Positions 3,469 to 53,592 of a stretch of 64,000 nt of DNA are shown here, in pieces (the first letter of the stretch is position 1; each line of letters begins with the position of its first letter). Source of the DNA: Planctomycetota bacterium (lineage in GTDB: Bacteria; Planctomycetota; Phycisphaerae; Phycisphaerales; SM1A02); assembly GCA_016872835.1 (NCBI GenBank), contig VGYX01000005.1, positions 1 through 64,000 of the forward strand, written 5' to 3'. The notes under the pieces are model-generated. The model did not search any database. It saw only the letters and a program-made list of their open reading frames with translations, and was not told where the DNA came from. The translations under genes and the position numbers were made by a program.

Positions 3469-4455
3469 TCAGGCTTCCTTGCGAGGCTCGACCTCGTCCT
3501 CGGTCGCCTCGGCCGCGGGATCACGCGTGGCGTCGGCTTCCGCGGCGGCGGCCTCGGTCGCGGCCTCCACGATGCTCGCCGGCTCGTCGTTCAGCCCGGG
3601 CGTGGGAAGGGCGGGCGCGTCGACGCCACCCACGCTGCCGAAGATCGCCCCCAGCAGCGATCCCTGACCACGGCGCTTCGGTCGGCTCAGGCGCTGGCGC
3701 AATTGCTCGGCGAAGTCGGCGTGCGGAACCGGATCGGAGAGCTTGCCGCTCTCGGCAAGACGGATCGTGCCGTTCTCCTCGCTCACCACCACCACCAGCG
3801 CGTCGCACTCCTCGGTCACGCCCACGGCGGCACGATGGCGCGCGCCCAGACGCACCGCGAAGGTCTCGTCGGTCAGTGGAAGTTGGACGCTCGCTGCGGC
3901 GATGCGTTCGCCTCGGATCACCACGGCCAGGTCATGCAGCGGACTGCTGGGCCAGAAGATGCTCTCAAGGACCGGCGCGGTCAGTCGCGCGTCCAGTTGC
4001 ACGCCCTGTGCGGCAAGCCCCGCCAGGCTGGTGCCGCGCTCGATCACCACCAGCGCGCCAAAGCGGTTGCGGCTGAGGAAACCGATCGCCTCGTCCAGCG
4101 AGTCGACCAGCGGATCGAGGTTGCGTCGCTCGCTTGGCACGATCGTCTGGCCCAGGCGCACCATCGCCTGACGCAGTTCGGGCTGGAACACGACCAGCAG
4201 GAACACCGCGATCGCGCCCAGCAGGCCTTCGCTCAGGAAGCGCAGGCGCGCGAAGCTCTCGCTGAACAGGCCCGCGAAACGGATGCCCAGCAGCAGCACC
4301 GCCACCAGGATGATCGCGCCCTTGAACACGCCGGCGCCGCGCGTTCCCTGCAGGAAGCGCAGCACGAACAGCACGCCCACGAAGATGACCGACAGCTCGA
4401 CCGCCACGCTGAGCGGATCACTCCCCCTGAAGAGCTGGAAGAGACGGTCGAACAC
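3469..4455 (-). CDS. cdaA: Membrane diadenylate cyclase, altered DGA motif
   Basis: Synthesises the second messenger c-di-AMP from two ATP at the inner membrane. From the GTG at 4455 it is 328 aa: membrane segments in about residues 18-60 and 72-92, then a DisA_N (DAC) domain at about 110-235. The RHR motif is intact (206-208), but the usual DGA motif reads DLA (175-177; codons 3933-3925), so the Gly is Leu. A C-terminal Ala/Glu-rich tail is not typical of the family. Longer starts would run into the divergent gene at 4505, while a TACAGT box 6 bases before the GTG supports this start. cdaR follows directly. Confidence 0.85.
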   Translation of the reverse strand: MFDRLFQLFRGSDPLSVAVELSVIFVGVLFVLRFLQGTRGAGVFKGAIILVAVLLLGIRFAGLFSESFARLRFLSEGLLGAIAVFLLVVFQPELRQAMVRLGQTIVPSERRNLDPLVDSLDEAIGFLSRNRFGALVVIERGTSLAGLAAQGVQLDARLTAPVLESIFWPSSPLHDLAVVIRGERIAAASVQLPLTDETFAVRLGARHRAAVGVTEECDALVVVVSEENGTIRLAESGKLSDPVPHADFAEQLRQRLSRPKRRGQGSLLGAIFGSVGGVDAPALPTPGLNDEPASIVEAATEAAAAEADATRDPAAEATEDEVEPRKEA

Positions 4456-4461
4456 GGGCCG

Positions 4462-4467
4462 ACTGTA
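4462..4467 (-). promoter_or_regulatory. TANNNT -10-like box before cdaA
   Basis: On the minus strand TACAGT stands 6 bases before the GTG of cdaA, without a ribosome-binding site between. It faces away from a second box (TAGGAT, 4492-4497), so the 49-base gap holds two divergent leaderless-type promoters. Confidence 0.5.
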
Positions 4468-4491
4468 CCACGCGAAACTGCGCCAGATCGC

Positions 4492-4497
4492 TAGGAT
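4492..4497 (+). promoter_or_regulatory. TANNNT -10-like box before gene at 4505
   Basis: TAGGAT ends 7 bases before the ATG at 4505. The same hexamer and spacing stand before murC. Confidence 0.5.
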
Positions 4498-4504
4498 TCG
4501 CAGG

Positions 4505-5023
4505 ATGAGCCGAGATGCGACCACCATTCCCGTGGGCAAGCCGACCTTCCAGTGCGCGGCGAGTGGCGAAGCGCTTCCGCCCGGCACGTCGTGCGTCACG
4601 ACGGTGCGCGAGAACGGCCAAGGTGGCTTCGAGCGCCTCGAGTTCAGTCAGGCCGCGTGGCTCGCGGGCGCGCGGCCCGAGGGATTGCTGTGCTGGTGGA
4701 AGACCGTGATGCCCGAGCCCGACGCCAAGCGACGACTGGTGCTCGATGACGAGGCGATCGAGGAGGTCTTCGATCGTCTTGCCGAGGATGACCGTCCCAA
4801 TCGCGTCGCCGTGCGCTGGCTGCTCGCCATGATCCTCCTGCGCAAGAAGCGGCTTCGTCACCTTCGGGTGGAAAGCGCGGAAGGGGTCGAGACCTGGCTC
4901 TTCTCGCGCCGCGGCGACGCCGAGGGCGCTCCGGCCACCGCGGTGGTGCGTCCGGCGCTCGACGAGGAAGCGATCGCGGCGCTTGGAGATGAATTGGGCG
5001 CGGTGGTCTCGTTCGATGCGTGA
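4505..5023 (+). CDS. Conserved-looking hypothetical protein
   Basis: 172 aa, no signal peptide or membrane segment, family not recognised. The N-terminal third has paired Cys/Trp positions (FQCAASGEAL, SCVTTV, LLCWWK) that suggest a small folded domain, possibly metal-binding; the middle is acidic (LDDEAIEEVFDRL) and is followed by a basic stretch (LLRKKRLRHL). It is transcribed away from cdaA and its stop overlaps the start of the lipoprotein gene at 5016, so those two are probably one operon. Confidence 0.7.
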   Translation: MSRDATTIPVGKPTFQCAASGEALPPGTSCVTTVRENGQGGFERLEFSQAAWLAGARPEGLLCWWKTVMPEPDAKRRLVLDDEAIEEVFDRLAEDDRPNRVAVRWLLAMILLRKKRLRHLRVESAEGVETWLFSRRGDAEGAPATAVVRPALDEEAIAALGDELGAVVSFDA

Positions 5024-5882
5024 TCGCTGGCTTGCTGGCGCGCTGCTGCTCCTGGCCGGATGCGTGGCGCCGTCGGCGAACCAGGGTTCCGTGCCACCCG
5101 CCGACCTGGTCGCCTCCAGCGCGTCCGTGGCCGACTTCGTGGCGGGCCAGTCCGCGCGCACGAGGGCACTGGATGACTTCGCCAGTCGAGGCTCGCTGGA
5201 GGTGCGCTGGAAGGACGACGAGGGGTCGCATTTCGAGCAGACCCAGGTCGAACTCGCGTGGCGCGAGCGGGGCCAGCGCATGGCCTTCCGCGCCGACAAG
5301 GTGGGCGAGCGACTGGCGTGGGCAGGTGCCGATGCCGGGCGCTGGTGGATCTTCGAGCTGAAGCGTGAGCCGAGCCGCCTGACGACGGGGCGCCGCGGCA
5401 GTGTGCCGAGGGATTCGATCCTTCCGTTCGTGGGGCCTGAGAGCGTGCTGGAGCTCATGGCCGCGCGCGCGTGGCCGGAGTCGGCGCGCGCCGCGGGTGC
5501 GGAGGGCACCTTGCGCTGGATCGAGTGGGATCTCGCCTCGCCCGTTGGCGCCTGGCGCCGGACGCGAGCGCTGGTGGAGCGGCCGGGCTCGCTTCCGCAG
5601 CGCGTGGAGTTGCTCGACTCGACGGGCCATGCGATCGCACGATCCACGTTGACGCGACCGCTTTCCGTTCCCGTGAATGGTCTGCCGACGGGTGCGTGGC
5701 CCGAGATCGCGGGCACCATGCGGATCGAGGCGGGTGAGTCGAGAGCGACATGGGACATCTTCTGGGATCAGCCCGGAACCGATCCTGCCCGTCTGAAGGA
5801 CCGGCTCTTCGACGTGGCGGTGCTCATCGAGGCGCTTCGTCCGCAGGAGGTCGTGGATCAGGATGCCACGACCAAGCCCTGA
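5016..5882 (+). CDS. Predicted lipoprotein, unknown function
   Basis: 288 aa. A short signal peptide ends in a lipobox (LLLLAGC), so lipid attachment at Cys15 is likely. The rest is a single domain rich in beta-type sequence and Trp, loosely like LolB/LolA lipoprotein carriers (a DDFASRGSLEVRW segment followed by alternating hydrophobic strands), but I cannot confirm that family. The ATG at 5016 overlaps the previous gene by 8 bases and puts the lipobox at the right distance; an earlier in-frame Met would spoil the signal peptide. Confidence 0.7.
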   Translation: MRDRWLAGALLLLAGCVAPSANQGSVPPADLVASSASVADFVAGQSARTRALDDFASRGSLEVRWKDDEGSHFEQTQVELAWRERGQRMAFRADKVGERLAWAGADAGRWWIFELKREPSRLTTGRRGSVPRDSILPFVGPESVLELMAARAWPESARAAGAEGTLRWIEWDLASPVGAWRRTRALVERPGSLPQRVELLDSTGHAIARSTLTRPLSVPVNGLPTGAWPEIAGTMRIEAGESRATWDIFWDQPGTDPARLKDRLFDVAVLIEALRPQEVVDQDATTKP

Positions 5883-5883
5883 C

Positions 5884-7299
5884 ATGTGCGGCGTGATGCG
5901 TGACTGGGTGGCATGGCTGCGGTGGCTTGTGCCTGTCGTCCTGCTGTGGGCCGCGGCCGGATCGCAGCCGGTGCCCTCGCCCGTGGCCACCTCCTCAGGC
6001 GATCACCTGTGGTGGGTGCAGCCGCAGGAGAAGATGTGGGCGGTCACGCATGCGGCGAGAGGACCCGATGGCACGCTGGTGCGGCACGCGGTGGCGAAGT
6101 TCGACGAGGCACCCGCAGCGCTCGCGGCCGAGGGCGATCGCGTATGGGCGCTCTTCGGCGGGAAGCAGGGGCGATGCGAACTCGTGACGGGTGCGGCGGT
6201 GGTGAATCCCGCCAGCGATCTGTGGTTCGTGCGGCCCGCGGGTATGCGACTCTGCGCGTCGTTGCCTCGCACGGGCGTGGAGAGCGTGGCCGCGATCGAT
6301 GGCGAACTCTGGGCGCTGTGCGTCGACACGCCGTCGCACGCGCTTCGACTTGTCGGCGAGACGTGGGTGGAGATCGAACTTCCGTCGCACGCTTCCAGCT
6401 TCACGCGCCGTGAACTCGTGCGCTCGCGTGGCGCACTGTGGTATCTGGTCGAGTCGCCTGATGGCTCCACGCTCCGATGGTCGCGCGAGTCGGGCGCTTG
6501 GCGCGGCGTTCCGCTCTCGTTGCCCGCGTGGGTTCGCACGATTCCCGGCGCCGATCTGCTGTCCGTGCAGACGAGCGATGGCAGTATCGGCTGGGTGGAG
6601 GGCGGTCGATTCGTGGCGCGAGGCGTGGCGCCCACACAGGGCGTGGTGCTTGGTTGGGGCGACGGCCTTGGCGCCCTGGACGTCGGCGCCGACGAGGTCA
6701 CGTGGGCCCCGTTGGCCGCGGCGGGGGGCGGCTTCGACGCGGCCACGGTCGTTGGCGAGCAGGCTTCGACGGCTTCCCGCTGGTTCCACCTTCCCGTGCT
6801 CGGCGTGCTCTCGCTCGGGGTGCTCATGCTGGCCACGATCCTGAAGGCGGCGCGTCAGGTGCGCGCACCCGCCGAGGCACGCGCTGCGCCGGCGGGCATG
6901 GCGGTCGGCCGACGGCTTGCCGCACTCGCGTTCGACGCGGCTCCTGTCGGCCTCGCCGCCATGCTGGCGCTCGATGTCGGCCCCGATGCGCTGCTCGGCG
7001 TTCCGCTGTGGGTCACCGACCTTGAAGAGGCGCGTCCCTTCCTTTGGATGACGGTCGGCACGGTGGCCTTCGGCATGGTGGAGGAGTGCGCCGGCTCGCG
7101 ATCGATGGGGAAGCGGGTCTTCGGGGGTGTCGTGCTGCGATCCGACGGAACCGGTGCAGCGTGGCCGCGCCACGTGGTCCGTAACCTTCTGAAGGGACTC
7201 ACGATGCTCTCGCCGCTGCTGGCGCTTCCGGCCTTGGTGAGTCGCCGTGGAGTCGGCGTGTCCGAGGTCGTGACCGACACCGCCGTGGCCGAGGCCTAG
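5884..7299 (+). CDS. RDD-family membrane protein with large N-terminal ectodomain
   Basis: 471 aa. A signal peptide or first membrane helix (about residues 8-25) is followed by about 270 residues of Trp- and Gly-rich, beta-propeller-like sequence, a membrane helix (about 305-323) and a C-terminal RDD domain with RLAALAFD and GKRVFGGVVLRSDG plus further helices. RDD domains are small integral membrane modules, some linked to ion transport. The gene starts one base after the stop of the lipoprotein gene; a Met four codons later is an alternative start. Function unknown. Confidence 0.7.
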   Translation: MCGVMRDWVAWLRWLVPVVLLWAAAGSQPVPSPVATSSGDHLWWVQPQEKMWAVTHAARGPDGTLVRHAVAKFDEAPAALAAEGDRVWALFGGKQGRCELVTGAAVVNPASDLWFVRPAGMRLCASLPRTGVESVAAIDGELWALCVDTPSHALRLVGETWVEIELPSHASSFTRRELVRSRGALWYLVESPDGSTLRWSRESGAWRGVPLSLPAWVRTIPGADLLSVQTSDGSIGWVEGGRFVARGVAPTQGVVLGWGDGLGALDVGADEVTWAPLAAAGGGFDAATVVGEQASTASRWFHLPVLGVLSLGVLMLATILKAARQVRAPAEARAAPAGMAVGRRLAALAFDAAPVGLAAMLALDVGPDALLGVPLWVTDLEEARPFLWMTVGTVAFGMVEECAGSRSMGKRVFGGVVLRSDGTGAAWPRHVVRNLLKGLTMLSPLLALPALVSRRGVGVSEVVTDTAVAEA

Positions 7300-7371
7300 C
7301 CGCTTTCTGCACGGTTGGGGCCCGGAACGCCGACATGGTGGGGTCCGATTGGGCATGGAGGCCCCTCGACC

Positions 7372-8406
7372 GTGAATTTCCCCAAGAACCTGTCCGAGTC
7401 CATCCGCACCGCTCCCTTCGCCTGGTCCATGGCGTTGGCGGCCGCCGCGCTGCCGTTTGGCGTGGTGGCGTGGAAGGGAAGCACGCGCAGCCCGTCACCT
7501 CAGACCGTGGTCGAGCCGGTCGTGCGAGCGAGCGCGTCCTCGTCGGGCGGCGTGTCGGACTGGTTCTCCGGAGCCGACAACCCATTCCTCACCGAGGAGC
7601 AGGCGCGCGAGCGACGCATGCGTGCCGCCGTGGCGCGCGTGGAGGAGGTGCTGCGACGAAGGCCCGATGTGCGCGAAGTCACCATCCTGACCGCCAACCA
7701 TGCCGAGGGTCGCGGCGCATCGGCGGTGGTCTCGATCGCGATGCGTGACGGCGTGGTGCCGGTGCAACTGGTCGATGCCGCCGGCACGCTGCTGTGTGCC
7801 GCGGTGCCCGGACTGCAGGCAGAGCAGGTCACCGTGATCGACGAGGCCTCGGGCATCCGAGCGCGTGCATGCTCGCTTGGAGCCGAGGGTGGCGATGATG
7901 GTCGCCAGGCGCTGGCGTCGGCGCAGGTTCCGGCGCGTGTGGTTCCGGTGGCTCCAGTCATCGCGCCAAGCGCGCCCAGCGCCGCGAGTCAGGGATGGCC
8001 GGCGTGGCTGTGGGCGGGTGGCGCCGCCGCCGCCGTCGGCCTCGCGTGGTCGGTCTGGTTCTGGCGAACGCGACAGGTGGACGTGGCACCGCCGCTCTCT
8101 GAAGTCGGCGAGGATGATCCGATCGCGGGCACGCTGTCCATGGCGTTGCACCGGCAGGTCGCGGAGCAGGGCACGCTGATCACCACGGCGTTGGTCGAGC
8201 GCCTCGAGCAGGGTGCGCCGGCCAACGAGGTGGCTCAACTGCTGCTGAGTCTGGAGCCGTGGGCCGCCGAGCGCGTCTTGAAGGGCATGCCGCCCGAGGC
8301 GCTTGCCAAGGTCGAGGAGGCGTTGCGCGATCCCGCGCACGACGCGCCCATGGAGCGTGTGCGTGCGCTCGCCGAGGCCGTGCTCAGCGTTCGCGTGGCT
8401 GCCTGA
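7372..8406 (+). CDS. FliF/FliG-like hybrid membrane protein
   Basis: 344 aa from GTG 7372, which has a GGAGG at 7357-7361. Order seen: membrane helix (16-34); periplasmic domain (80-170) resembling the end of the FliF/YscJ ring domain (ASAVVSIAM, CAAVPGLQAEQVTVID); Pro/Ala linker; second helix (209-231); cytoplasmic tail (250-320) resembling the FliG N-terminal domain (VAQLLLSLEPWAAERVLKGM). FliF normally has about 550 aa and ends in a short FliG-binding peptide, so this looks like a shortened M-ring protein fused to its partner domain. No other flagellar structural gene is nearby. Assignment rests on short motifs. Confidence 0.55.
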   Translation: MNFPKNLSESIRTAPFAWSMALAAAALPFGVVAWKGSTRSPSPQTVVEPVVRASASSSGGVSDWFSGADNPFLTEEQARERRMRAAVARVEEVLRRRPDVREVTILTANHAEGRGASAVVSIAMRDGVVPVQLVDAAGTLLCAAVPGLQAEQVTVIDEASGIRARACSLGAEGGDDGRQALASAQVPARVVPVAPVIAPSAPSAASQGWPAWLWAGGAAAAVGLAWSVWFWRTRQVDVAPPLSEVGEDDPIAGTLSMALHRQVAEQGTLITTALVERLEQGAPANEVAQLLLSLEPWAAERVLKGMPPEALAKVEEALRDPAHDAPMERVRALAEAVLSVRVAA

Positions 8407-8414
8407 ACTGTTCT

Positions 8415-9665
8415 TCAGTTCCCGGGATCGCGCGAAGGCGCGCCGCCCGTGTGGCGCGGCTGTCGTGTGGCGGCGTCGGCCATGCTCTCGGAGGTCGCAG
8501 GGGCGACGCCCTCGATCTTCGCGAAGAGCAGTCTTCCGGCGGCGGTCTGCACCGCGTTCGTGACCACCACCGCCACCGTGGCACCCACGCGTGACTGTCC
8601 CTCCTCGATCACGACCATCGTGCCGTCCGGCAGATAGCCCACGCCCTGACGCTCACCCTCGCCGCGCTTGGTCACCTGCACGCTGGCCGTGTCGCCCGGA
8701 CCCAGCGCCGGACGAAGCGTGGTCATCAGATCGTTCAGGTTCAGCGCCGTGACACCCTGAATGCGCGCCACGGCATCCAGATTCGAGTCGAGCGTGAGGA
8801 TGCGCAGCCCCTCGCCGCGAGCGGCCTCCACAAGCATGCGATCCACGCCCATGCCGGTCACGCGAAAGTCCTGCAGCGACACGTCCGCGTAGGGGCTCTC
8901 GCGCAGCCGCGCCAGCAGTTCCAGGCCTCGGCGTCCTCGGCCGCGCTTGCCGCGGTCACCGCTGTCGGCCAGCTTCTGGAGTTCTTCGACCACGAAGTGC
9001 GGCACCACGATCGGCGCGTCCACGAATCCGGTCGCCGCGAGCGCGGGGAGGCGGCCGTCGATCAGCACGCTGGTGTCCACAAGCCACGGACGCACGCCGC
9101 GCCGGGTTCGAGAGAACTCCACGTAGGGAATGACCAGACGGAGGTCGTCCTTCGTGGTCAGCACCACGCTGATGCTCAGATAGCAGAAGACAAGACCAAC
9201 CACCGACTTCGCGAGCGGTAGATAGACGCCAAGCGACTGCTGGATCTCCCACGCGCGGGCGATCACGTCGATCAGCGCACCGAACGCGACGGCGCCGATC
9301 AGTCCGAGGCACACGCCAAGGTAGATGCCCACCACGCCGGCAAGTCGCTTGTTGGGCGTCAGCGCGTCGACGGCCAACACCAGCAGGCCCACGGCGACCA
9401 TCGAGATGATCAGGCCCACCACCGTGGAGTAGGTGAACTCACCGGTGCCGCGCACGCTGTTGACGGTGAGCAGCGTGACCGACACCAGCAGGATCATGAA
9501 CACCGATCGGATGACCAGCATCAGGAGGCGTCCGGAGCGCGCCTCGTGGCTTTCCGGAGGTTGTGGCGCCGGACGATCGATCGATGGTGTCGAGACCGAC
9601 GCCTCCGTCGATGCGGGCGCCGAGGAATCCGGCGGAATCGTGCTCGGGGTCTCGTCGTTCGGCAT
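8415..9665 (-). CDS. PIN-TRAM membrane protein, YacL type
   Basis: 416 aa. Four hydrophobic helices (about residues 45-165) are followed by a PIN nuclease domain with acidic residues in LVDTSVLIDGR, FVVEEL and LTLDSNLD, then a TRAM RNA-binding domain near the C-terminus (GQGVGYLPDGTMVVIEEG). This is the architecture of YacL-type proteins, thought to be membrane-anchored RNases, of unknown target. It converges with the FliF/FliG-like gene, leaving 8 bases between the stops. It starts at ATG 9665 behind a TACAAT box. Confidence 0.85.
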   Translation of the reverse strand: MPNDETPSTIPPDSSAPASTEASVSTPSIDRPAPQPPESHEARSGRLLMLVIRSVFMILLVSVTLLTVNSVRGTGEFTYSTVVGLIISMVAVGLLVLAVDALTPNKRLAGVVGIYLGVCLGLIGAVAFGALIDVIARAWEIQQSLGVYLPLAKSVVGLVFCYLSISVVLTTKDDLRLVIPYVEFSRTRRGVRPWLVDTSVLIDGRLPALAATGFVDAPIVVPHFVVEELQKLADSGDRGKRGRGRRGLELLARLRESPYADVSLQDFRVTGMGVDRMLVEAARGEGLRILTLDSNLDAVARIQGVTALNLNDLMTTLRPALGPGDTASVQVTKRGEGERQGVGYLPDGTMVVIEEGQSRVGATVAVVVTNAVQTAAGRLLFAKIEGVAPATSESMADAATRQPRHTGGAPSRDPGN

Positions 9666-9674
9666 GCAGGATCG

Positions 9675-9680
9675 ATTGTA
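9675..9680 (-). promoter_or_regulatory. TANNNT -10-like box before the PIN-TRAM gene
   Basis: Minus-strand TACAAT, 9 bases before the ATG at 9665, with no Shine-Dalgarno sequence between. Close to the sigma-70 -10 consensus. Confidence 0.5.
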
Positions 9681-9699
9681 CGAGTGATGGCGGCGCGGC

Positions 9700-9705
9700 T
9701 AGCAT
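9700..9705 (+). promoter_or_regulatory. -10-like box for the SRP RNA
   Basis: TAGCAT lies 6 bases before the predicted 5' end of the SRP RNA terminal helix (9712), the distance expected between a -10 box and the transcription start. It is divergent from the PIN-TRAM promoter at 9675-9680. Confidence 0.45.
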
Positions 9706-9711
9706 CCGACC

Positions 9712-9844
9712 TCTCGACGGCGTCGGAGGACGGTCGGGCCCGTCGGGTGGACGGCCCGTGAACCTGGTCAGGGCTTGACCGCAGCAGCCATAAGCGGCGT
9801 CGCCCATGCCGGCGCAAGCCTGGCCGTCCTCCGCGTCGTCGAGA
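9712..9844 (+). ncRNA. ffs: Signal recognition particle RNA (small bacterial type)
   Basis: The conserved domain is plain: GUGAACCUGG-UCAGG at about 9758-9772 and AGCAGCC-AUAAG at 9783-9794, the symmetric-loop sequence that binds Ffh. The ends pair: 9712-9722 with 9834-9844 and 9724-9733 with 9824-9833, one long terminal helix with a single bulged U and one G-U pair. This defines about 133 nt, somewhat longer than 4.5S RNA. The apical part is 10 nt as usual but reads GCUUGACCGC, so the normal GGAA tetraloop is replaced by UGAC or a six-base loop. dnaX begins 16 bases downstream. The family assignment is firm; the ends are inferred from pairing. Confidence 0.9.
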
Positions 9845-9860
9845 TTCCAACGGAGCACGC

Positions 9861-11660
9861 GTGGCGCGAAAGACCAAGGACAAGGAAGTCTCGGAACCCG
9901 AAGGCGACGGCCTGCTGATCGCGGGCGCGTTGGAGCCTTCGGCCGACGCGCCCAAGGCCTACACGGTGCTCGCGCGGCGCTATCGCAGCCGCAACTTCGA
10001 CGAGCTGATCGGACAGGAATCGATCGCGCGCACGCTGCAGAACGCGATCGCCATGGGCCGCACCGCGCACGCCTACCTGTTCTGCGGCACGCGCGGCGTG
10101 GGCAAGACCAGCATGGCGCGCGTGTTCGCCCGGGCGCTGAACGCGCCGAAGGACCTTTCGGAATCCGCCGCGGTAGCCGCCAGCATCCTGCGTGGAGAGG
10201 ATCTGGACGTCATCGAGATCGACGGCGCCAGCAATCGCGGCGTGGACGACGCACGCGACCTGATCAGCAAGGCCGGCATCGCCCCTGCGCGCAGCCCGTA
10301 CCGCATCTACATCATCGACGAGGTGCACATGCTCACCACCCCGGCCTTCAACGCGCTGTTGAAGACCATGGAGGAGCCGCCCTCGCACGTGAAGTTCATC
10401 CTGTGCACCACCGAGCCGCACAAGGTGCCCGCCACGATCCAGAGCCGCTGCCAGCGCTTCGACTTCCGGCCGATCGCCACGAGCCGCATCGTGGAGCACC
10501 TGAAGGCGGTGCTGAAGCAGGAGGGGCTGGGCGCGGAGGACGCAGCCGTGCATCTGGTCGCGCGGCTTGGCAACGGCAGCATGCGCGACGCGCTGAGTCT
10601 GCTGGACCGACTCATCGCCGCTGCGAGCGGCACGATCACGGCTCGGCTTGCCGAGGAGACGCTGGGTCTGCCCGACGCGACGTTGGTGGCGGCGATCAGC
10701 GCGGCGGCCGCGGCGGGCGATCCCAAGGCCGGTCTGCAGGCGGCGGCGCGATTGCTCGAAAGCGGTTCGCCCGTCGAGCAGTCACTCGAATTGCTGGCGT
10801 CGCGTCTGCGGGACCTGCTGGTGATCCGGGCGTGCGGCGCCGAGAGCGATCTGGTGGAGTTGGCCCCCGAGGCGCGCGCGCAGGCCGCGACCGAGGCGCA
10901 GGCCTTCGAGAGCGAGGAATTGGTGCACCTGGTGGCCGTCTGCGAGGCGGCGTTGCGGGCCGCGCGCTCCAGCAGCGCACCGCGCACGGTGCTGGATGCC
11001 ACGGTGGCGCGCATCTGCCTGCACCGGTCGTTCGAGCCGATCGAGACCTCGGCGGAGCAAAAAAAAAAGGTAGCTGAAACGGCGCGGCCGGCGCTCCCCA
11101 GTTCGGTCCATGTTCCGGTGGCGGCGCGCCCGGTCCCGGCCGCGCCACCCGTGATCGCGCGCGAGCCGGTCGCAGCGTCGAAGCCAAGTGTGCCCGCGCC
11201 GGGGGCTGCCGTGGGAGGGGCTGCCGCATCCACGGATTCAATGCCTCCGCCGCGCGACGCTGCGGAGGCGTGGTCGCGCATCGGGGCGATCGTGACGGTG
11301 CCGCGAGATGCGGCCCTGTTCGAGTCCTTCGAACCCGTGTCGCTCGAGGGTCAGACCCTTCGCCTGCGTGCGGCGGATGGGGCGGGCATGGGCGGTGCCT
11401 TCGCCTCGCGGCGCACCGAGCCGCTGCTGGAACTCGTTCGGCGCGGGCTTGGGCCCGCATGGCGCGTCGCGGTCGATGCGCCTGCCGAGGCTGGTGCGCC
11501 CTTGGCACCGCGCGCCACGCATGGCCTCGACGCCGGCATCCCGAATCATCCGCTTGTCCGCGAGGCGATGGACGCCTTTGACGCCATCGTGTTGAAGGTG
11601 GATCGACGCGCCAACGCCTCGTCGGCTTCGGCGGGCAGCGAGACGGATACCGACGCCTAG
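9861..11660 (+). CDS. dnaX: DNA polymerase III subunits tau and gamma
   Basis: Clamp-loader ATPase of the replisome, 599 aa for the full tau form. AAA+ domain: Walker A GTRGVGKT at residues 76-83, Walker B in IYIIDEVHML, sensor 1 around LCTTEPHK, SRC arginine finger in QSRCQRFDF. The zinc module usually found between Walker A and B (four Cys) is absent: residues 91-111 contain no Cys. A 30-residue N-terminal extension precedes the family start. A run of ten A at codons 400-403 can shift the frame and give a gamma form of about 405 aa. GTG start with GGAG 5-6 bases upstream. First protein gene of the dnaX-recR-rpoN-hpnCDE-queG run. Confidence 0.95.
   Translation: MARKTKDKEVSEPEGDGLLIAGALEPSADAPKAYTVLARRYRSRNFDELIGQESIARTLQNAIAMGRTAHAYLFCGTRGVGKTSMARVFARALNAPKDLSESAAVAASILRGEDLDVIEIDGASNRGVDDARDLISKAGIAPARSPYRIYIIDEVHMLTTPAFNALLKTMEEPPSHVKFILCTTEPHKVPATIQSRCQRFDFRPIATSRIVEHLKAVLKQEGLGAEDAAVHLVARLGNGSMRDALSLLDRLIAAASGTITARLAEETLGLPDATLVAAISAAAAAGDPKAGLQAAARLLESGSPVEQSLELLASRLRDLLVIRACGAESDLVELAPEARAQAATEAQAFESEELVHLVAVCEAALRAARSSSAPRTVLDATVARICLHRSFEPIETSAEQKKKVAETARPALPSSVHVPVAARPVPAAPPVIAREPVAASKPSVPAPGAAVGGAAASTDSMPPPRDAAEAWSRIGAIVTVPRDAALFESFEPVSLEGQTLRLRAADGAGMGGAFASRRTEPLLELVRRGLGPAWRVAVDAPAEAGAPLAPRATHGLDAGIPNHPLVREAMDAFDAIVLKVDRRANASSASAGSETDTDA
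11059..11146 (+). other. dnaX slippage site and downstream stem-loop
   Basis: Ten A residues (11059-11068) inside dnaX. After a -1 shift the frame reads Lys-Gly-Ser then TGA (11075-11077); after a +1 shift it meets TAG at 11071-11073. An 11-bp perfect stem (11081-11091 with 11136-11146) begins 12 bases after the run. Programmed shifting by a poly-A run is established for dnaX in E. coli (ribosomal) and Thermus (transcriptional slippage). Either mechanism would make a short gamma subunit here. Confidence 0.8.
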
Positions 11661-13895: not shown

Positions 13896-14851
13896 TGTCG
13901 ATCGCCGAGGCGCGGTGCACCGACTTGCTGGATCGGATGGGGCCGGACCAATGCGAGCGCATGAGCGAGGCCGACGCGCGCGCGTGGTGCGTCTCGCTGG
14001 CGCGCACGCGCGGCGAGAACTTTCCCGTGCTCACGGCGTTGCTGCCCACGCATGTGCGCGAGGACTTCGGCGCGATCTACGCCTTCTGCCGCTGGGCCGA
14101 CGACCTTGGTGACGAGGCCGGTGATCCCGGGCGTGCGCTGGAACTGCTCGCGTGGTGGCGGTCCGAGCTGCAGGCCTGCTACGCGGGCGAGCCGCGGCAT
14201 CCGGTGTTCACGGCGCTGCGACCCACCATCCTGCGACACGCGCTCCCGATCGAGCCCTTCGACCACCTGATCCAGGCGTTCGAGTGGGACAACCGCAAGA
14301 ATCGCTGGTCGACCATGGAGGAGCTCCTGCGAAGCTGCGCGCTGAGCGCGGATCCCGTCGGGCGCATCGTGCTGATGACGCTGGGCGAGTCGCGCGGCGA
14401 GGAGGCGTTCGCCCAGTCCGACGCGATCTGCACCGGCCTGCAGCTGATCAACCACTGGCAGGATGTGCGGCGTGACCTGCTCGAGCGCGACCGCATCTAC
14501 ATTCCCGCGGCCGCCAGCGCCGCCATTCCCGACTTCGAGCGGCGACTCCGCATCACCGCGGAGCAGGGCTGGGCCCCGGATCGGGAGTTCCTGCCGGCCT
14601 ACCGCGCGATGCTGGCCGGACTGGTGAACCACGCCGAGAGCATGTTCGATCGCGGTGAGCCGTTGCTGCGCGGTCTCCGCCGGTCGTCCCGCCCCGTGAT
14701 CTGGCTGTTCCAGCGAGGTGGGCGCGAGATCCTGGCGCGTGTGCGGGCGTGGGACCACGAGACCTGCATCCGTCGGCCGCGCGTCTCGATGGCAAGCAAG
14801 GTGCGCATGATCGCGACAGCCTGGTGGCAGGCCCGGAGGGCGCACGCATGA
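13895..14851 (+). CDS. hpnC: Squalene synthase HpnC
   Basis: 318 aa, squalene/phytoene synthase fold. In the HpnCDE route HpnC converts presqualene diphosphate to hydroxysqualene. The first Asp-rich motif is FCRWADDLGDE (about residues 67-77) and the second is WQDVRRDLLERDRIYIP. The ATG (13895) shares a base with the rpoN stop, and its own stop overlaps hpnD by four bases. HpnC and HpnD were told apart by order and motifs: HpnC has the NxWQDV form. Confidence 0.9.
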   Translation: MSIAEARCTDLLDRMGPDQCERMSEADARAWCVSLARTRGENFPVLTALLPTHVREDFGAIYAFCRWADDLGDEAGDPGRALELLAWWRSELQACYAGEPRHPVFTALRPTILRHALPIEPFDHLIQAFEWDNRKNRWSTMEELLRSCALSADPVGRIVLMTLGESRGEEAFAQSDAICTGLQLINHWQDVRRDLLERDRIYIPAAASAAIPDFERRLRITAEQGWAPDREFLPAYRAMLAGLVNHAESMFDRGEPLLRGLRRSSRPVIWLFQRGGREILARVRAWDHETCIRRPRVSMASKVRMIATAWWQARRAHA

Positions 14852-15723
14852 GCCGTGCATTGCAGGAGGCGGTCCGGACGTGCGAGGCGATCACGCGACG
14901 GCGTGCGCGCAACTTCCATTACGGACTTCGGTTCACCCCCGAGGATCGCCGGTGGGCGATGTACGCGGTCTACGCATGGATGCGCGAGGCCGACGACCTC
15001 GCCGATGGCGCGGGCCCCGATCGTGCCGAGCGTTCCCGGCGCATCGCGAAGTTCCGTGCCGACACCGATGCTGCCTTCGTGGGCCAGCCCGATGACACGC
15101 AGCCATGCATGGTGGCTCTCGCGGAGGCGGTGCGCCGGTTCCATCTGGAGCCCGGCGAGTTCCATGACATGCTTGAGGGCCAGATGGGGGATCTCGACGC
15201 CGCGCGCTTCGAGACTTGGGATGAGCTGCGCGCGTTCTGCTATCGCGTGGCGGGAACCGTCGGCGTGGTGTGCATCCGGGTCTGGGGTTTCCACGGAGCC
15301 GACGCCATCCGGCTGGCCGTGGATCGAGGCATCGCCTTCCAGTTGACGAACGTGCTGCGCGACCTGGGCGAGGATCTGGACGCGGGTCGTTGCTACCTTC
15401 CGCTGCGCGAGTACGCGGCCATGGACCTGTCGCCGGACGATCTGCGTGCATGGCGCCTGCCTGATCGGGGCACCGAGTTCATCCGCGCGCAGTGCGAGCG
15501 GGCGCGTGCGCACTATGAACGCAGCGCACCGCTGGATCGCATGATCGACGCGTCGTGCCTGCCCACGCTCTGGGCGATGACCCAGATCTATCGCGGCATC
15601 CTTGGCCGCATCAAGACGGATCCGCGCATCACGGTCGCCGGGCGCGCGCGGCTTTCCAGTTTCCGCAAGGCCTGGATCGCATGGCGTGCCACGCGCATGA
15701 AGCCGGAGGCGTCATCGCGATGA
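14848..15723 (+). CDS. hpnD: Presqualene diphosphate synthase HpnD
   Basis: 291 aa. Condenses two farnesyl diphosphates to presqualene diphosphate. Asp-rich motifs ADDLAD and NVLRDLGEDLDAGRCYLP are intact, and the RARNFHYG block near the N-terminus is typical. ATGA overlaps link it to hpnC upstream and hpnE downstream, so the three enzymes are likely made in fixed ratio. Confidence 0.93.
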   Translation: MSRALQEAVRTCEAITRRRARNFHYGLRFTPEDRRWAMYAVYAWMREADDLADGAGPDRAERSRRIAKFRADTDAAFVGQPDDTQPCMVALAEAVRRFHLEPGEFHDMLEGQMGDLDAARFETWDELRAFCYRVAGTVGVVCIRVWGFHGADAIRLAVDRGIAFQLTNVLRDLGEDLDAGRCYLPLREYAAMDLSPDDLRAWRLPDRGTEFIRAQCERARAHYERSAPLDRMIDASCLPTLWAMTQIYRGILGRIKTDPRITVAGRARLSSFRKAWIAWRATRMKPEASSR

Positions 15724-17105
15724 GCGACGTGGTCGTGATCGGTGGAGGCATCGCGGGCATCGCCACCGCGCTTCGGCTGGCCGAGGTGGGCCGACGCCCC
15801 GTGGTGATCGAGACCCGGCGCAAGTTGGGCGGTCGCGCCACGAGCTTCGTGGACCCGCGCACCGGCGAGATGCTGGACAACTGCCAGCACGTGGCGATGG
15901 GTTGCTGCACGAATCTGATGGATCTGTATCGCAGGCTGGGTGTGCTCGAGCGCATGCAGTGGCACCCGACCACGTACTGGGCGAATCCGCCCCATGAGCC
16001 GGATCGGATGGAGCCAGGTTGGCTGCCTGTGCCGGGCCAGTTCACGGGCTCATTCCTGCGCATGCGGTTCATCGGCCTGGCCGACAAGATCGGCATCGCG
16101 CGCGCGATGTGGCGACTGCTGCGCATGGGGATCGCGGGGCGCGAGCACTGGCGTGGTCGCGTGTTCGTTGACTTCCTCCGTGAGACCGGCCAGACGGACG
16201 TGGCCTTGGAGCGTTTCTGGGAACCGGTCGTGGTGAGCGCGTGCAACCTGCCAAGTGATCGCGTGGACGCACCCTTCGCCATGCAGGTCTTTCAGGAGGG
16301 TTTCCTGGGCCATCGCTGGGCAAGCGCGATGGGATTGAGTGCGGTGCCGCTGCTGGAGCTCTACGACCCGGCCGAAGCGCTGCTGGCCAAGGTTGGCGGA
16401 CAGCTTCGCCTCGGGGTCAGTGCGCAGTCGATCGCCTTCGATGGACGGCGTGTGACCGGCGTGGTCACCGACGAGGGCTTTGTGGAGGGTGCGGCCGTGG
16501 TGAGTGCCGTGCCCTTCGATCGACTCGCCAAGCTCTGCTCGGACACGCTCAAGACGGCGGATCGTCGACTCCAGCGCCTTGATCAGATCGCCGTGAGTCC
16601 GATCGTGGGTGTGCACCTGCGCTATCCGGCGCGAGTGCTGGAGACGCCGCACCTTGTGCTGCCTGGCCGAGCCACGCAATGGCTCTTCGACAAGGGACTC
16701 GATGCCGGCGGCCGTCAACACGTGCATGCGGTGATCAGCGGCGCCGAGGCGTGGATGGATCTGCCCGAAGCCGAGATCGCGCGACGTGTGCACGCCGATG
16801 TGCAATGGGCGTGTCCGCGCGCCGCCGGAATCAGTCCCGAGGAAGTCCGGAGCGTGAAGGAGCGTCGCGCCACCTTTGCGGCGGTGCCTGGGTTCGCGGA
16901 ACTCCGTCCGGGTCCACGACCTGATCCGCGTGGTGGCGTGGACAACCTCTTCCTGGCGGGCGATTGGTGCGACACCGGCTGGCCGGCCACCATGGAGGGC
17001 GCGGTCCGCAGCGGCTACGCGGCCGCCGCGGCGATCGTTGGAAGCGGGGGCGTGGAGCCCGACTTGCCGATCGAGCCGCTTGCGCGGCTGGTGGGATTGC
17101 GTTGA
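15720..17105 (+). CDS. hpnE: Hydroxysqualene dehydroxylase HpnE
   Basis: 461 aa FAD-dependent amine oxidase-like protein that reduces hydroxysqualene to squalene. An N-terminal Rossmann motif (VVVIGGGIAGIATALRLAE) is followed by RKLGGRATS, and the C-terminus has the FAD block FLAGDWCDTGWPATMEGAVRSG. Starts in an ATGA overlap with hpnD; its stop overlaps the TTG start of queG. Together with hpnC and hpnD it supplies squalene for hopanoids. Confidence 0.93.
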   Translation: MSDVVVIGGGIAGIATALRLAEVGRRPVVIETRRKLGGRATSFVDPRTGEMLDNCQHVAMGCCTNLMDLYRRLGVLERMQWHPTTYWANPPHEPDRMEPGWLPVPGQFTGSFLRMRFIGLADKIGIARAMWRLLRMGIAGREHWRGRVFVDFLRETGQTDVALERFWEPVVVSACNLPSDRVDAPFAMQVFQEGFLGHRWASAMGLSAVPLLELYDPAEALLAKVGGQLRLGVSAQSIAFDGRRVTGVVTDEGFVEGAAVVSAVPFDRLAKLCSDTLKTADRRLQRLDQIAVSPIVGVHLRYPARVLETPHLVLPGRATQWLFDKGLDAGGRQHVHAVISGAEAWMDLPEAEIARRVHADVQWACPRAAGISPEEVRSVKERRATFAAVPGFAELRPGPRPDPRGGVDNLFLAGDWCDTGWPATMEGAVRSGYAAAAAIVGSGGVEPDLPIEPLARLVGLR

Positions 17106-31601: not shown

Positions 31602-31624
31602 TGAAACTTCACGTCAGGAACGGA

Positions 31625-32053
31625 TCAGCCGTTCTTGGCACCCGCGAACGGGCACATGCTGCCGCTGCCCGAGCCCGGGCAACCGCTCTTGCCGCTGACC
31701 GCGCCGGCCGAGGTGTTCTTGCTCTCGCTGCAGGTGCTCTTCTTCTCGGAGCAGCTGCTGGAGCAGTCCTTCTTCTCGCTGACCGCGCCGGCCGAGGTGT
31801 TCTTGCTCTCGCTGCAGGTGCTCTTCTTCTCGGAGCAGCTGCTGGAGCAGTCCTTCTTCTCGCTGACCGCGCCGGCCGAGGTGTTCGCCTGGGTCTTGCA
31901 GCAGTCCTTCGCGTCCTTGCCCTTGCAGCAGTCCGACTTCTTCTCGGTCACGGCGCCGGGGCTGGCCTTGGCGTCGGAGGTCTTCGTGTCCTTGTTGCAT
32001 GCCGCCAGGCCAAGCATCAGGCTCGCAGCGGCGAGAATCGCGATCTTCTTCAT
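31625..32053 (-). CDS. Cys-rich repeat lipoprotein, unknown function
   Basis: 142 aa. The signal peptide has lipobox LAAC (Cys19). The mature part is Lys/Ser/Cys-rich with 13 Cys in all, arranged as DCC pairs and then two identical 28-residue repeats (each DC-SSSC-STC, opening with NTSAGAVSEKK), plus a third opening and two final Cys. It has no aromatic residue apart from one Phe near the end, so it is unlikely to fold alone; metal or thiol chemistry at the envelope is a guess. AAGGAG lies 8 bases before the ATG, and a strong terminator follows, which suggests high expression. Confidence 0.85.
   Translation of the reverse strand: MKKIAILAAASLMLGLAACNKDTKTSDAKASPGAVTEKKSDCCKGKDAKDCCKTQANTSAGAVSEKKDCSSSCSEKKSTCSESKNTSAGAVSEKKDCSSSCSEKKSTCSESKNTSAGAVSGKSGCPGSGSGSMCPFAGAKNG
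31693..31886. repeat. 84-base tandem repeat inside the Cys-rich lipoprotein gene
   Basis: Two identical 84-base copies (31693-31776 and 31777-31860) and 26 bases of a third (31861-31886). The unit is 28 codons, so copy number can change without a frameshift. Identity at third codon positions shows a recent duplication. Confidence 0.92.
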
Positions 32054-52836: not shown

Positions 52837-53289
52837 ATGCTTGTCCAGACCACTCGTTTCGGACCCGTCGAAGTCGACGAATCCAGGCTGCTGGAGTTTC
52901 CCGCCGGTTTGCTTGGGTTCTCCCGAGCTCGCCGCTTCGCGTTGCTTCAGCCCGACGAGCGGGGCGTGTTCTTCTGGTTGCAGAGCGTCGAGAGCGCGGA
53001 TGTCGCCTTCGTGGTCACCGACCCATGCCTGTGGAGCCAGGACTTCACGGTCAGTCTGCGCCGTGAGCAGACGGCGGAGATCGGGCTGCCTGAGGGCGTC
53101 ACGCCGCAGCTGCTCGTGATCGTGAACCGTCGCGATCATGGCATCACCGCAAACATGCAGGGACCACTCGTCATCAACCCTGCCACGCGCGTCGGCCTGC
53201 AGGTCGTCCTTGCCGATCGACGCTGGACCACGCGTCACGAGCTGGTGTCGGTCTCGCCTGCCACCCGCGCCGCTACGCAGACGGCCTGA
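52837..53289 (+). CDS. fliW: Flagellar assembly factor FliW
   Basis: 150 aa. FliW binds CsrA and, in flagellated bacteria, flagellin, so that free flagellin frees or blocks CsrA. Conserved blocks: TTRFGPVEVDESRLLEFPAGLLGF, FFWLQSVESADVAFVVTDP, and GPLVINPATRVGLQVVL. AGGAGG at 52827-52832 lies 4 bases before the ATG, so this gene has a normal leader. csrA follows after 12 bases. Confidence 0.95.
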   Translation: MLVQTTRFGPVEVDESRLLEFPAGLLGFSRARRFALLQPDERGVFFWLQSVESADVAFVVTDPCLWSQDFTVSLRREQTAEIGLPEGVTPQLLVIVNRRDHGITANMQGPLVINPATRVGLQVVLADRRWTTRHELVSVSPATRAATQTA

Positions 53290-53301
53290 GCATCACGATC
53301 C

Positions 53302-53592
53302 ATGCTTGTCCTCTCTCGCCAGCGTGATGAACGAATCGTGATCGGTGACGACGTCGAGGTTGTGGTCGTCGACATCCGTGGCGACAAGGTGCGCCTTGGG
53401 ATCGTCGCACCGAACACCGTCTCCGTGCACCGCAAGGAGATCTACGAGGCCATCCGCCGCGAGAATCAGGATGCGTCCGGCCTGCAGGGCGATGTCACGC
53501 GCTTCAACGGCGTCACGCCCGGATCCGAGGCGATCCGTCGTCTCGCGCAGCGTCATCAGGGACACGGCGACTCGCGACGCGAGATCGCCTGA
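53302..53592 (+). CDS. csrA: Translational regulator CsrA
   Basis: 96 aa. Homodimeric RNA-binding protein that blocks GGA-containing ribosome-binding sites. The core ([20 protein letters not shown] ... [22 protein letters not shown]) is intact, including the Arg of the VHRKE segment. About 35 extra C-terminal residues follow the usual 61; a C-terminal extension is where FliW acts in other bacteria. It ends 42 bases before the convergent rplT. Confidence 0.95.

Follow-up and report, generated by a model that had tools for sequence, protein, structure and literature searches.

The RBM2 motif forms the inner M ring of flagella, around the FliPQR export gate. According to the published accounts, a 23-mer of RBM2 makes the hole for this gate (PMC8270960), the RBM2 ring contacts FliQ and FliP (PMC11481574), and the C terminus of FliF from C. 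pneumoniae binds the cytoplasmic domain of FlhA (PMC2830194). A natural short FliF-FliG fusion has been described in the Chlamydiaceae (Bergeron 2016; PMC4768692). Partial flagellar gene sets are reported in a 2025 survey of flagellar loss, in which one cluster consists mostly of Chlamydiota and the main text does not contain the term 'planctomycet' (PMC12199754); the study of degenerate flagella in Actinobacteria concerns the loss of the rod (PMC10746217), and a Planctomycetes genome of the family M1A02 is reported with ordinary flagellar genes (PMC9119077). Among the open-access literature matches listed, there was no report of gate-only remnants or of FliF-FliG fusions in Planctomycetota. 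The present work concerns such a fusion, encoded in a stretch of 64,000 nucleotides from a Planctomycetota genome (referred to below as the window), to which attention was drawn by an earlier note made from the sequence of the window.

A short fliF gene with a FliG-like tail

The open reading frame described in the note is real, with the start, stop and likely ribosome-binding site given in Table 1, and the encoded protein of 344 aa shows the order of helix, single RBM2, helix and FliG-N-like tail. Its AlphaFold2 model has a mean pLDDT of 64.9, and the tens of residues from 71 to 160 average 76-87. The second membrane helix is treated here as predicted and not as firm, because its hydropathy is below the threshold used (1.4), whereas a stretch within RBM2 (residues 127-146) exceeds this value. 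No pattern of a sigma70-type promoter or of a terminator was seen in positions 4300-9900 of the window.

Table 1. Positions, in the window, of the fusion gene, its parts and the other genes discussed in the text
Feature	Position	Strand	Remarks
Conserved upstream neighbour, 172 aa	4505..5023	+	Marker of the ancestral flagellar locus; without Pfam match
Conserved upstream neighbour, putative lipoprotein	5016..5882	+	Read by eye; no Pfam match
Gene immediately 5' of fliF; its protein has an RDD-like membrane end	5884..7299	+	RDD 19.3 bits, below cut-off
GGAGG, likely ribosome-binding site of the fusion gene	7357..7361	+	Read from sequence; ten bases 5' of GTG
Short fliF-fliG(N-like) fusion gene, 344 aa	7372..8406	+	GTG start at 7372, stop at 8406
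First membrane helix, residues about 14-34	7411..7473	+	Hydropathy peak; model helix 5-32, low pLDDT there
FliF RBM2 domain, residues 73-165	7588..7866	+	VIA-align, Foldseek, Pfam PF01514
Second membrane helix (predicted), residues 212-234	8005..8073	+	Helix in AlphaFold2 model
FliG N-like cytoplasmic tail, residues 250-344	8119..8403	+	Sequence profiles; structure matches fall on FliG M
fliW	52837..53289	+	Pfam PF02623, 109.5 bits
csrA	53302..53592	+	Pfam PF02599, 82.4 bits

Relatives of the fusion were identified at five further loci by a contig scan with a two-sequence alignment (best segments 53-60% identical), and the scan using the single fusion protein as query gave no relative. Two of the five orthologue records are labelled Planctomycetota, and one orthologue (L047) is identical in sequence to a stretch of the genome G039, which belongs to the same genus. 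The alignments of the fusion comprise four sequences, this protein included, L050 (broken frame) and L051 (cut by the contig end) having been set aside; in all four the frame is intact with invariant blocks, and the mean pairwise identity is 0.69 in RBM2, 0.79 in the tail, which is the most conserved segment, and 0.21-0.51 in the helices and linkers. For the closest usable pair (L048/L049), the fliF gene has a dN of 0.13 and a dS of 0.76 (dN/dS about 0.17), due to which the open reading frame cannot be ascribed to chance; the dN/dS values of neighbouring genes in the same pair are 0.09/0.55 (PIN-TRAM) and 0.23/0.82 (RDD gene). In L050 (positions 891-1971) the orthologue lies in two frames within a short MAG contig, which may be due either to a sequencing error or to true decay. 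Elsewhere in the window, a frame on the minus strand (31614-32000) contains internal repeats and may represent a repeat region or, on the opposite strand, a repetitive protein.

Identity of the FliF part

In the AlphaFold2 model, the domain following the first helix shows the order helix-strand-strand-helix-strand, and it is the one RBM in the whole model. By means of VIA-align, residues 73-165 were superposed on chain residues 123-221 of 8wkq_WJ, an MS ring (Z 10.9, 2.1 A, 92 residues), and the comparison with the RBM2inner entry 6sd2 gave a Z of 10.6, while all eight matches found by Foldseek at E <= 0.001 with the fusion model were FliF/MS-ring entries, the best at 1e-4. The Pfam family YscJ_FliF (PF01514) gives 18 bits in the fusion, where the match covers the end of the model (profile 125-173), and 20.7, 22.2 and 19.6 bits in three orthologues (E-values of 0.0028-0.00015 for the four proteins), and the cut-off of 24.4 is thus not reached. 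Despite this, the matches by Foldseek and VIA-align settle that the FliF part is RBM2, and it is firm, as judged from the modelled fold, that the fusion carries this domain of FliF.

RBM1, RBM3 and the collar are absent from the fusion according to the family FliF model, the length of the protein and its AlphaFold2 model. The family model, which comprises 543 positions and is based on 17 sequences with this protein among them, matches the fusion only in positions 88-261 (RBM2), 368-494 (near the second helix and the tail) and, weakly, 2-60 (N terminus), and the 344 aa of the fusion compare with 514-626 aa in the 14 longer rows of the family FliF alignment. The reduced FliF/YscJ-type domain that had been proposed from the sequence is therefore confirmed and can be named as RBM2, and the prediction of the structure of the fusion alone, which had been suggested as a check, yields a fold that superposes on FliF rings. 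It was also correctly noted that the protein lacks the first ring domain as well as the FliG motor domain, no RBM1 and no FliG_C being found in the fusion, and that a protein of this kind, with a single RBM2, cannot form a normal M-ring.

Relationship of the tail to FliG

The tail is, by its sequence, of the FliG armadillo type and N-like, and its structure points to the middle domain (M) of FliG. The Pfam family FliG_N gives 13.2 bits (E 0.14) in the fusion and about 14 bits (up to 14.1) in two orthologues, where the cut-off is 25, and no match at E 1 in the orthologue L047. A FliG_N profile made from 14 relatives matches, among the 563 frames of the window, only the frame of the fusion (E 0.014), and its E-values against the fusion protein and the orthologues are 0.002-0.025 (0.025 for the fusion), whereas the FliG M profile of the family shows no match to the fusion at E 5. 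In the profile-profile comparison by hhalign, the tail is assigned to FliG_N with a probability of 84% vs 0.8% for FliG_M, both values being indicative due to the small alignments. For the FliG_C motor domain, there is no match at E 10 in the fusion protein or in the genome. When the orthologue profile was compared with the sequences in PDB, the best match was an engineered Vibrio FliF-FliG fusion (combined E 0.028), in which RBM2 (11.7 bits) and the FliG N region (4.2 bits) are matched in order; five of the seven PDB sequence matches listed (E 0.3-0.5) are short designed-looking proteins.

The structural comparisons point elsewhere. Most of the FliG matches of the tail fall on the middle region, residues about 102-174 (Z 5.4-6.7), and are tied with unrelated helical repeats. 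For the tail-only model (pLDDT 82), the Z in VIA-align is 6.6 or less, with FliG, MgtE and unrelated helical repeats tied, and Foldseek gives no match at E 0.001. As the tail is aligned on the middle region (residues 110-174) even in the full-length FliG chains 3hjl, 9n49_G and 8umx_B, the structure speaks against FliG N. The label 'N-like' is based on the sequence profiles. The FliG-N-like tail of the earlier note hence stands so far as the sequence profiles are concerned, but the Pfam matches remain below the cut-off and the structure matches fall on FliG M; likewise, the profile searches that it recommended for the two regions find matches to both FliF and FliG, but both are below the Pfam cut-offs (18 vs 24.4 and 13.2 vs 25 bits). 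Among relatives, a longer FliF with a FliG_N tail is seen in G025 (27.4 bits) and G058 (20.5 bits; cut-off 25), and the longer FliF of G004 ends in FliG_C (72.6 bits).

Flagellar genes remaining in the genome

The genome from which the window is derived (G000; 2.39 Mb, 46 contigs, 98.9% complete) lacks, in the profile searches, any second YscJ/FliF, any FliG_C and any FliG_M. Flagellin N (PF00669), rod/hook C (PF06429) and T3SS ATPase C (PF18269) gave 0 matches at E 0.001, and for FliMN_C (PF01052) there was none over the cut-off, with three weak matches at E 0.08-0.33. The rod/hook, flagellin, FliM/N and ATPase parts expected of a working flagellum are thus not found in this genome. Present instead, on another contig, is a gate cluster with the order fliO-fliP-fliQ-fliR-flhB-flhA-flhF-like-sigma28 (fliA), in which FliO, FliP, FliQ, FliR, FlhB and FlhA all match their own Pfam families over the cut-off (FlhA with 618 bits), and the flhF-like and sigma28 genes match the SRP54 GTPase and the sigma70 regions, respectively. 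It was rightly stated earlier that no flagellar structural gene lies beside the fusion.

The sigma28-like factor, which follows the flhF-like gene (L032 1329-2114; L033 15788-16573), is 95% identical between G000 and G039, and this far exceeds the identity of the gate genes (47-79%), which makes a separate role for the factor probable. A scan for sigma28-type promoters, based on a consensus with up to 2 mismatches and run without a shuffled control on 15 stretches, showed 1 to 6 matches in each of ten stretches and none in the window, L031, L032, L039 and L101, and it provided no lead to a cargo or a regulon.

Distribution in the family

Within 61 genomes of the family, FlhA is present in 47 and FliF, at E 0.01, in 48, where 47 matches are strong and that in G052 (E 0.005) is treated as spurious. 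Strong matches to both FliF and FlhA are seen in 46 genomes and to neither in 13, so that 59 of the 61 genomes have both or neither; the two exceptions are G052 (FlhA only; 88% complete) and G047 (FliF only; 65% complete), the latter without any match to rod/hook, flagellin, ATPase or FliM/N. The rod/hook domain is found in 39 of the 61 genomes, the T3SS ATPase C domain in 38 (37 over the cut-off), flagellin in 36 and FliG_M in 41. Single absences among the 39 rod/hook genomes consist of flagellin in G044, G051 and G052, and of the ATPase in G014.

Exactly 8 of the FlhA-positive genomes, belonging to 5 genera, are without a rod/hook domain, and all 8 are also without flagellin and ATPase matches. 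These gate-only genomes are G000 and G039 (genus g1), G003 (g4; 88% complete), G004 (g5), G018 and G055 (g19), and G025 and G058 (g26; the FlhA of G058 is a fragment). They had been picked by FlhA rather than FliF, and FliF is present in all of them (8/8). The survey of genomes with and without flagella, which the note had proposed, hence reveals the co-occurrence of FliF and FlhA without rod/hook, flagellin or ATPase in 8/61 genomes. A search for FliM/N, covering the eight gate-only genomes and four others, found no match over the cut-off in any of the eight, and the rod-and-hook controls were positive (3/3). Remnants of other components are present in some cases: FliE is retained in both G003 and G004, and G003 also has a reduced FliG that matches the N, M and C profiles. 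FliG_M matches are weak in G003 and G058, and that in G058 lies in a frame of 465 aa on a different contig from its fliF.

Changes in FlhB and FlhA

The NPxH autocleavage site of FlhB (x = T, E, D or Q) is present in 37/37 rod/hook genomes and in 0/7 gate-only genomes, a count that leaves aside G058 (best match E 0.54) as well as G011 and G044, whose stretches end early. In G003, G004, G018 and G055, the C-terminal domain of FlhB is present without NPxH, and in G000, G039 and G025 (the last read by eye) this domain is gone; the FlhB of the genome studied here stops at profile position 221 of 335, and its cytoplasmic domain is missing. In Salmonella, as reported, the removal of one loop of the FlhB cytoplasmic domain halts all export (PMC3640470).

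The changes in FlhA are uneven. Out of 99 positions of the membrane/FHIPEP part that are invariant in 39 relatives, 86 are kept in G000, 84 in G039, 93 in G025, 99 in both G003 and G004, 98 in G018 and 97 in G055, and out of 31 invariant positions of the C domain, the numbers are 23 (G000), 24 (G039), 27 (G025), 29 (G003), 29 (G004), 25 (G018) and 22 (G055), the fragment of G058 not being counted. In leave-one-out controls, four of five retained 98-99 of 99-100 positions and, in the C domain, 31 of 31-33; the fifth, the divergent G051, retained 99 of 109 and 31 of 46, a level similar to that of the lower gate-only rows. All of the gate-only rows (7/7) have the FVRGD motif, and its aspartate corresponds to Salmonella Asp-208, as judged by the Lys-203/Arg-206/Asp-208 spacing given in PMC3139655; the equivalent of Lys-203 is Arg in G000, G039 and G025. 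Asp-208 is described as the sole essential acidic residue among the eight charged residues mutated in Salmonella FlhA, where most substitutions were tolerated with FliH-FliI and not without them (PMC3139655), and flagella are reported for Salmonella mutants without ATPase activity when the proton motive force and the substrate levels are raised (PMC4230889). In a very GC-rich stretch of G025:C18 (L129, L099), FlhA lies within a frame of 886 aa and FlhB ends soon after the membrane part.

Origin of the locus and selection on its genes

The three genes upstream of the fusion are co-directional with it, and it is followed by a converging PIN-TRAM gene. In G056, which possesses the full flagellar set, the same disA-like and ybbR-like genes, the gene of 172 aa, the lipoprotein gene and four other genes lead into flgB-flgC-fliE-fliF-fliG-fliH-fliI-fliJ (names by eye), and family matches to Flg_bbr_C, FliF, FliG_M and the ATPase confirm this cluster (G056:C2). 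As the fusion shares the upstream genes that lead into the G056 cluster, the flagellar locus has evidently been hollowed out in place. At the ancestral locus of G000, G039, G018 and G055, no flagellar gene other than the short fliF is seen, and that of G003 and G004 still has fliE and a two-component pair (by eye); these descriptions leave out G025 and G058, where the gene caller misreads the very GC-rich L042, L097-L099 and L103. The RDD-like protein is a possible partner of the fusion, though it is not constant across genomes: its counterpart in G004 matches RDD with 53.8 bits, and G039 has no room for such a gene.

Some other genes at these loci may be recorded. The protein between the lipoprotein gene and fliF (L100 3101-4357; L096 6374-7324) shows no Pfam RDD match in G018, and the corresponding position in G056 is occupied by a protein of 669 aa without a Pfam match. 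A DegT-like aminotransferase (by eye) follows fliF/fliG in G004 (L100 10399-11577), G018 (L096 8565-9734) and G003 (L095 8756-9979), and not in g1. At a separate locus of G039 (L034; G039:C1:231000-250999), a plus-strand frame of 972 aa at 13973-16891 has a start that we take to resemble a type II Cas9, and another plus-strand frame lies after it.

Phylogenetic trees were examined for FtsH (18 rows, of which several are partial and one is filled to only 15%) and FlhA (47 rows, a quick version, in which long branches and composition bias are flagged in the g1 and g26 rows). In both trees, G004 groups with the flagellated G007, G035 and G050 (FtsH fork 94/97, FlhA fork 99) and g1 joins g26 (FtsH 88/88, FlhA 99). 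The position of g19 is unstable, its neighbour being the G004 group by FtsH and G051 by FlhA. Neither tree shows G003 and G004 as sisters, and flagellated rows group closer to G004. These branching patterns suggest that the flagellum was reduced separately two times at the least and probably three or four times, where the number is an estimate that calls for caution on account of the long branches. The fusion of FliF with FliG_N may predate the split of g1 and g26, with g1 then losing RBM1 and RBM3.

Between G000 and G039, where dS is near saturation, the dN/dS values are 0.21/2.13 for flhA (a ratio of 0.10), 0.18/1.71 for fliP, 0.18/1.40 for fliQ, 0.50/1.45 for fliR, 0.50/2.34 for flhB, 0.04/2.76 for sigma28 and 0.11/2.08 for ftsH. 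The genes flhB and fliR evolve fast, with 47-48% identity vs 83% for ftsH, and fliF, flhA, fliP and fliQ are under purifying selection.

Proposed function of the retained fliF and gate genes

We consider it probable, on the whole of this evidence, that the fusion is the surviving fliF of a lineage that lost its flagellum, and that it would serve as a reduced MS ring, on which a retained and probably proton-coupled export gate is scaffolded. The gate is taken to be probably still proton-coupled, without an ATPase or a substrate switch, because the energy-coupling loop of its FlhA, including the counterpart of Asp-208, is preserved. In terms of mechanism, fliF would have been cut to a single RBM2, with the loss of RBM1 and of RBM3 with the collar, and with a FliG N-like domain as its C terminus. 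The protein would assemble via RBM2 into a small ring in the inner membrane, this ring would hold the FliPQR-FlhB-FlhA gate, and the tail may pack between neighbouring subunits, in replacement of FliG, and/or on the cytoplasmic ring of FlhA; a gate holder lacking rod and rotor would presumably require no ring motif but RBM2. A common complex of FliF and the gate is inferred because the two are retained together, their genes not being adjacent. The role of the fusion as a gate scaffold is likely, and protein export by the retained gate, a putative function, is possible; the case against export in g1 is that FlhB is there without its cytoplasmic domain, one loop of which Salmonella cannot do without. 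The relaxed C domain of FlhA (23 of 31) and the fast evolution of flhB and fliR count against this reading of scaffold and export, as do the Arg at the Lys-203 position and the finding in Salmonella that most FlhA substitutions need FliH-FliI to be tolerated (PMC3139655). Among the three options offered in the earlier note (viz. a relict, a regulator that caps FliF/FliG, or a part of another membrane ring), the last comes nearest, the ring being probably one around the retained export gate.

More tentatively, and as a proposal that could well prove wrong, the gate-only genomes may represent a recurrent and selected end state, to which several lineages have independently cut the flagellum: a FliF ring with the FliPQR-FlhBA gate, kept as a minimal inner-membrane exporter or proton-driven channel, in which FliF would have as little as one ring domain and would in many cases be fused to a piece of FliG, and from which the ATPase, FliM/N, rod, hook, filament and FlhB switch would have been discarded.

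Some weight, though a limited one, should be given to the alternative that the gate and ring export nothing and form an ion-conducting or scaffolding complex of the inner membrane, e.g. one that holds the FlhF-like GTPase. The greater conservation here of the membrane part of FlhA (86 of 99) in comparison to its C domain (23 of 31), the loss of the FlhB C domain and the flhF-like gene adjoining flhA are in accordance with such a complex. However, FlhB of G003, G004, G018 and G055 retains the C domain and is missing only NPxH, and G003 and G004 keep FliE, and because of these features the gate in those relatives is seemingly still able to pass something.

It is rather unlikely that fliF and the gate genes are a decaying relict without any present function, i.e. 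the last genes to go after the flagellum was lost. The graded shortening of FliF and FlhB across lineages would agree with decay, as would the long branches of the gate-only FlhA rows, the faster flhB and fliR, the 13/61 genomes with neither FliF nor FlhA, and the broken frame of the orthologue L050 from a short MAG contig. However, fliF, flhA, fliP and fliQ are under purifying selection, four fusion sequences have an intact frame with invariant blocks, FliF occurs in 8/8 genomes that were picked by FlhA, and the Asp-208 motif of FlhA is kept in 7/7. The term relict, as used in the note, is thus apt for the origin of the gene, which occupies the same locus as the full fliF of a flagellated relative, but it is too weak for its present state, in view of the purifying selection and the co-retained gate.

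Two other interpretations are so improbable that they are rejected. A regulator capping or poisoning a normal FliF/FliG ring, as might be imagined for a FliF ring module joined to a FliG-like module without motor domain, is contradicted, as far as a 98.9% complete assembly goes, by the finding of no other FliF, FliG_C or FliG_M in this genome, and of no FliM/N over the cut-off. An SctJ-type injectisome ring could be considered because RBM2 also matches EscJ (Z 9.6, rmsd 5.3) and PrgK (Z 8.7, 2.8), but the gene lies at a flagellar locus, the protein has a FliG-like tail as well as two predicted membrane helices, the genome gives no match to a T3SS ATPase, and the best structure matches are to FliF.

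The gate-only genomes resemble natural experiments on what the core of type III export can do alone. They have together lost the rod, hook, filament, FliM/N, ATPase and the self-cleavage site of FlhB, and the ring motif touching the gate and the energy-coupling part of FlhA are kept. It thereby becomes testable which domain of FliF is required to hold the gate, whether the role of FlhB cleavage is confined to the building of flagella, and what is transported by a gate without a flagellum.

Comparison with known fusions

The results presented here extend the natural FliF-FliG fusions beyond the Chlamydiaceae. As described, the fusion of the latter group resembles the present one in its length of about 330 aa, its non-flagellated host, the two membrane helices (the second being a prediction here), the missing RBM1 and the kept RBM2, as well as in the fusion of a FliG domain at the cytoplasmic end and the retention of FlhA. 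However, according to PMC4768692, the Chlamydia protein contains the middle domain of FliG and a second RBM-like region, whereas here the sequence profiles favour FliG N, with the structure matches falling on FliG M, and there is one RBM in the model. Similarly, Chlamydia is described as having an injectisome (PMC4768692) and the FliI ATPase (PMC2830194), whereas no T3SS ATPase is matched here, and the reduction has here occurred within a family whose relatives keep the whole set at the same locus. Set against the published description of the Chlamydiaceae fusion, the similarity of the two proteins would appear to be a case of convergence.

With canonical FliF of the MS ring, the fusion shares the order of membrane helix, RBM2 and (predicted) membrane helix and the same genomic locus, but it is without RBM1, RBM3 and the collar, and no separate FliG is present. 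The engineered FliF-FliG fusions (PMC11481574, where a functional Salmonella fusion is also cited) are likewise single chains; however, the engineered Vibrio fusion is described as consisting of the whole fliF and fliG genes, whereas the present one is natural and minimal, with one FliG domain. The FliF-FliG_C of G004 and the FliF-FliG_N of G025 and G058 are similar in being natural fusions in genomes that have the gate but no rod/hook, flagellin or ATPase match. They differ in that their FliF is longer (RBM1 and RBM2 by Pfam, RBM3 by eye), and in G004 also in that the tail is FliG_C.
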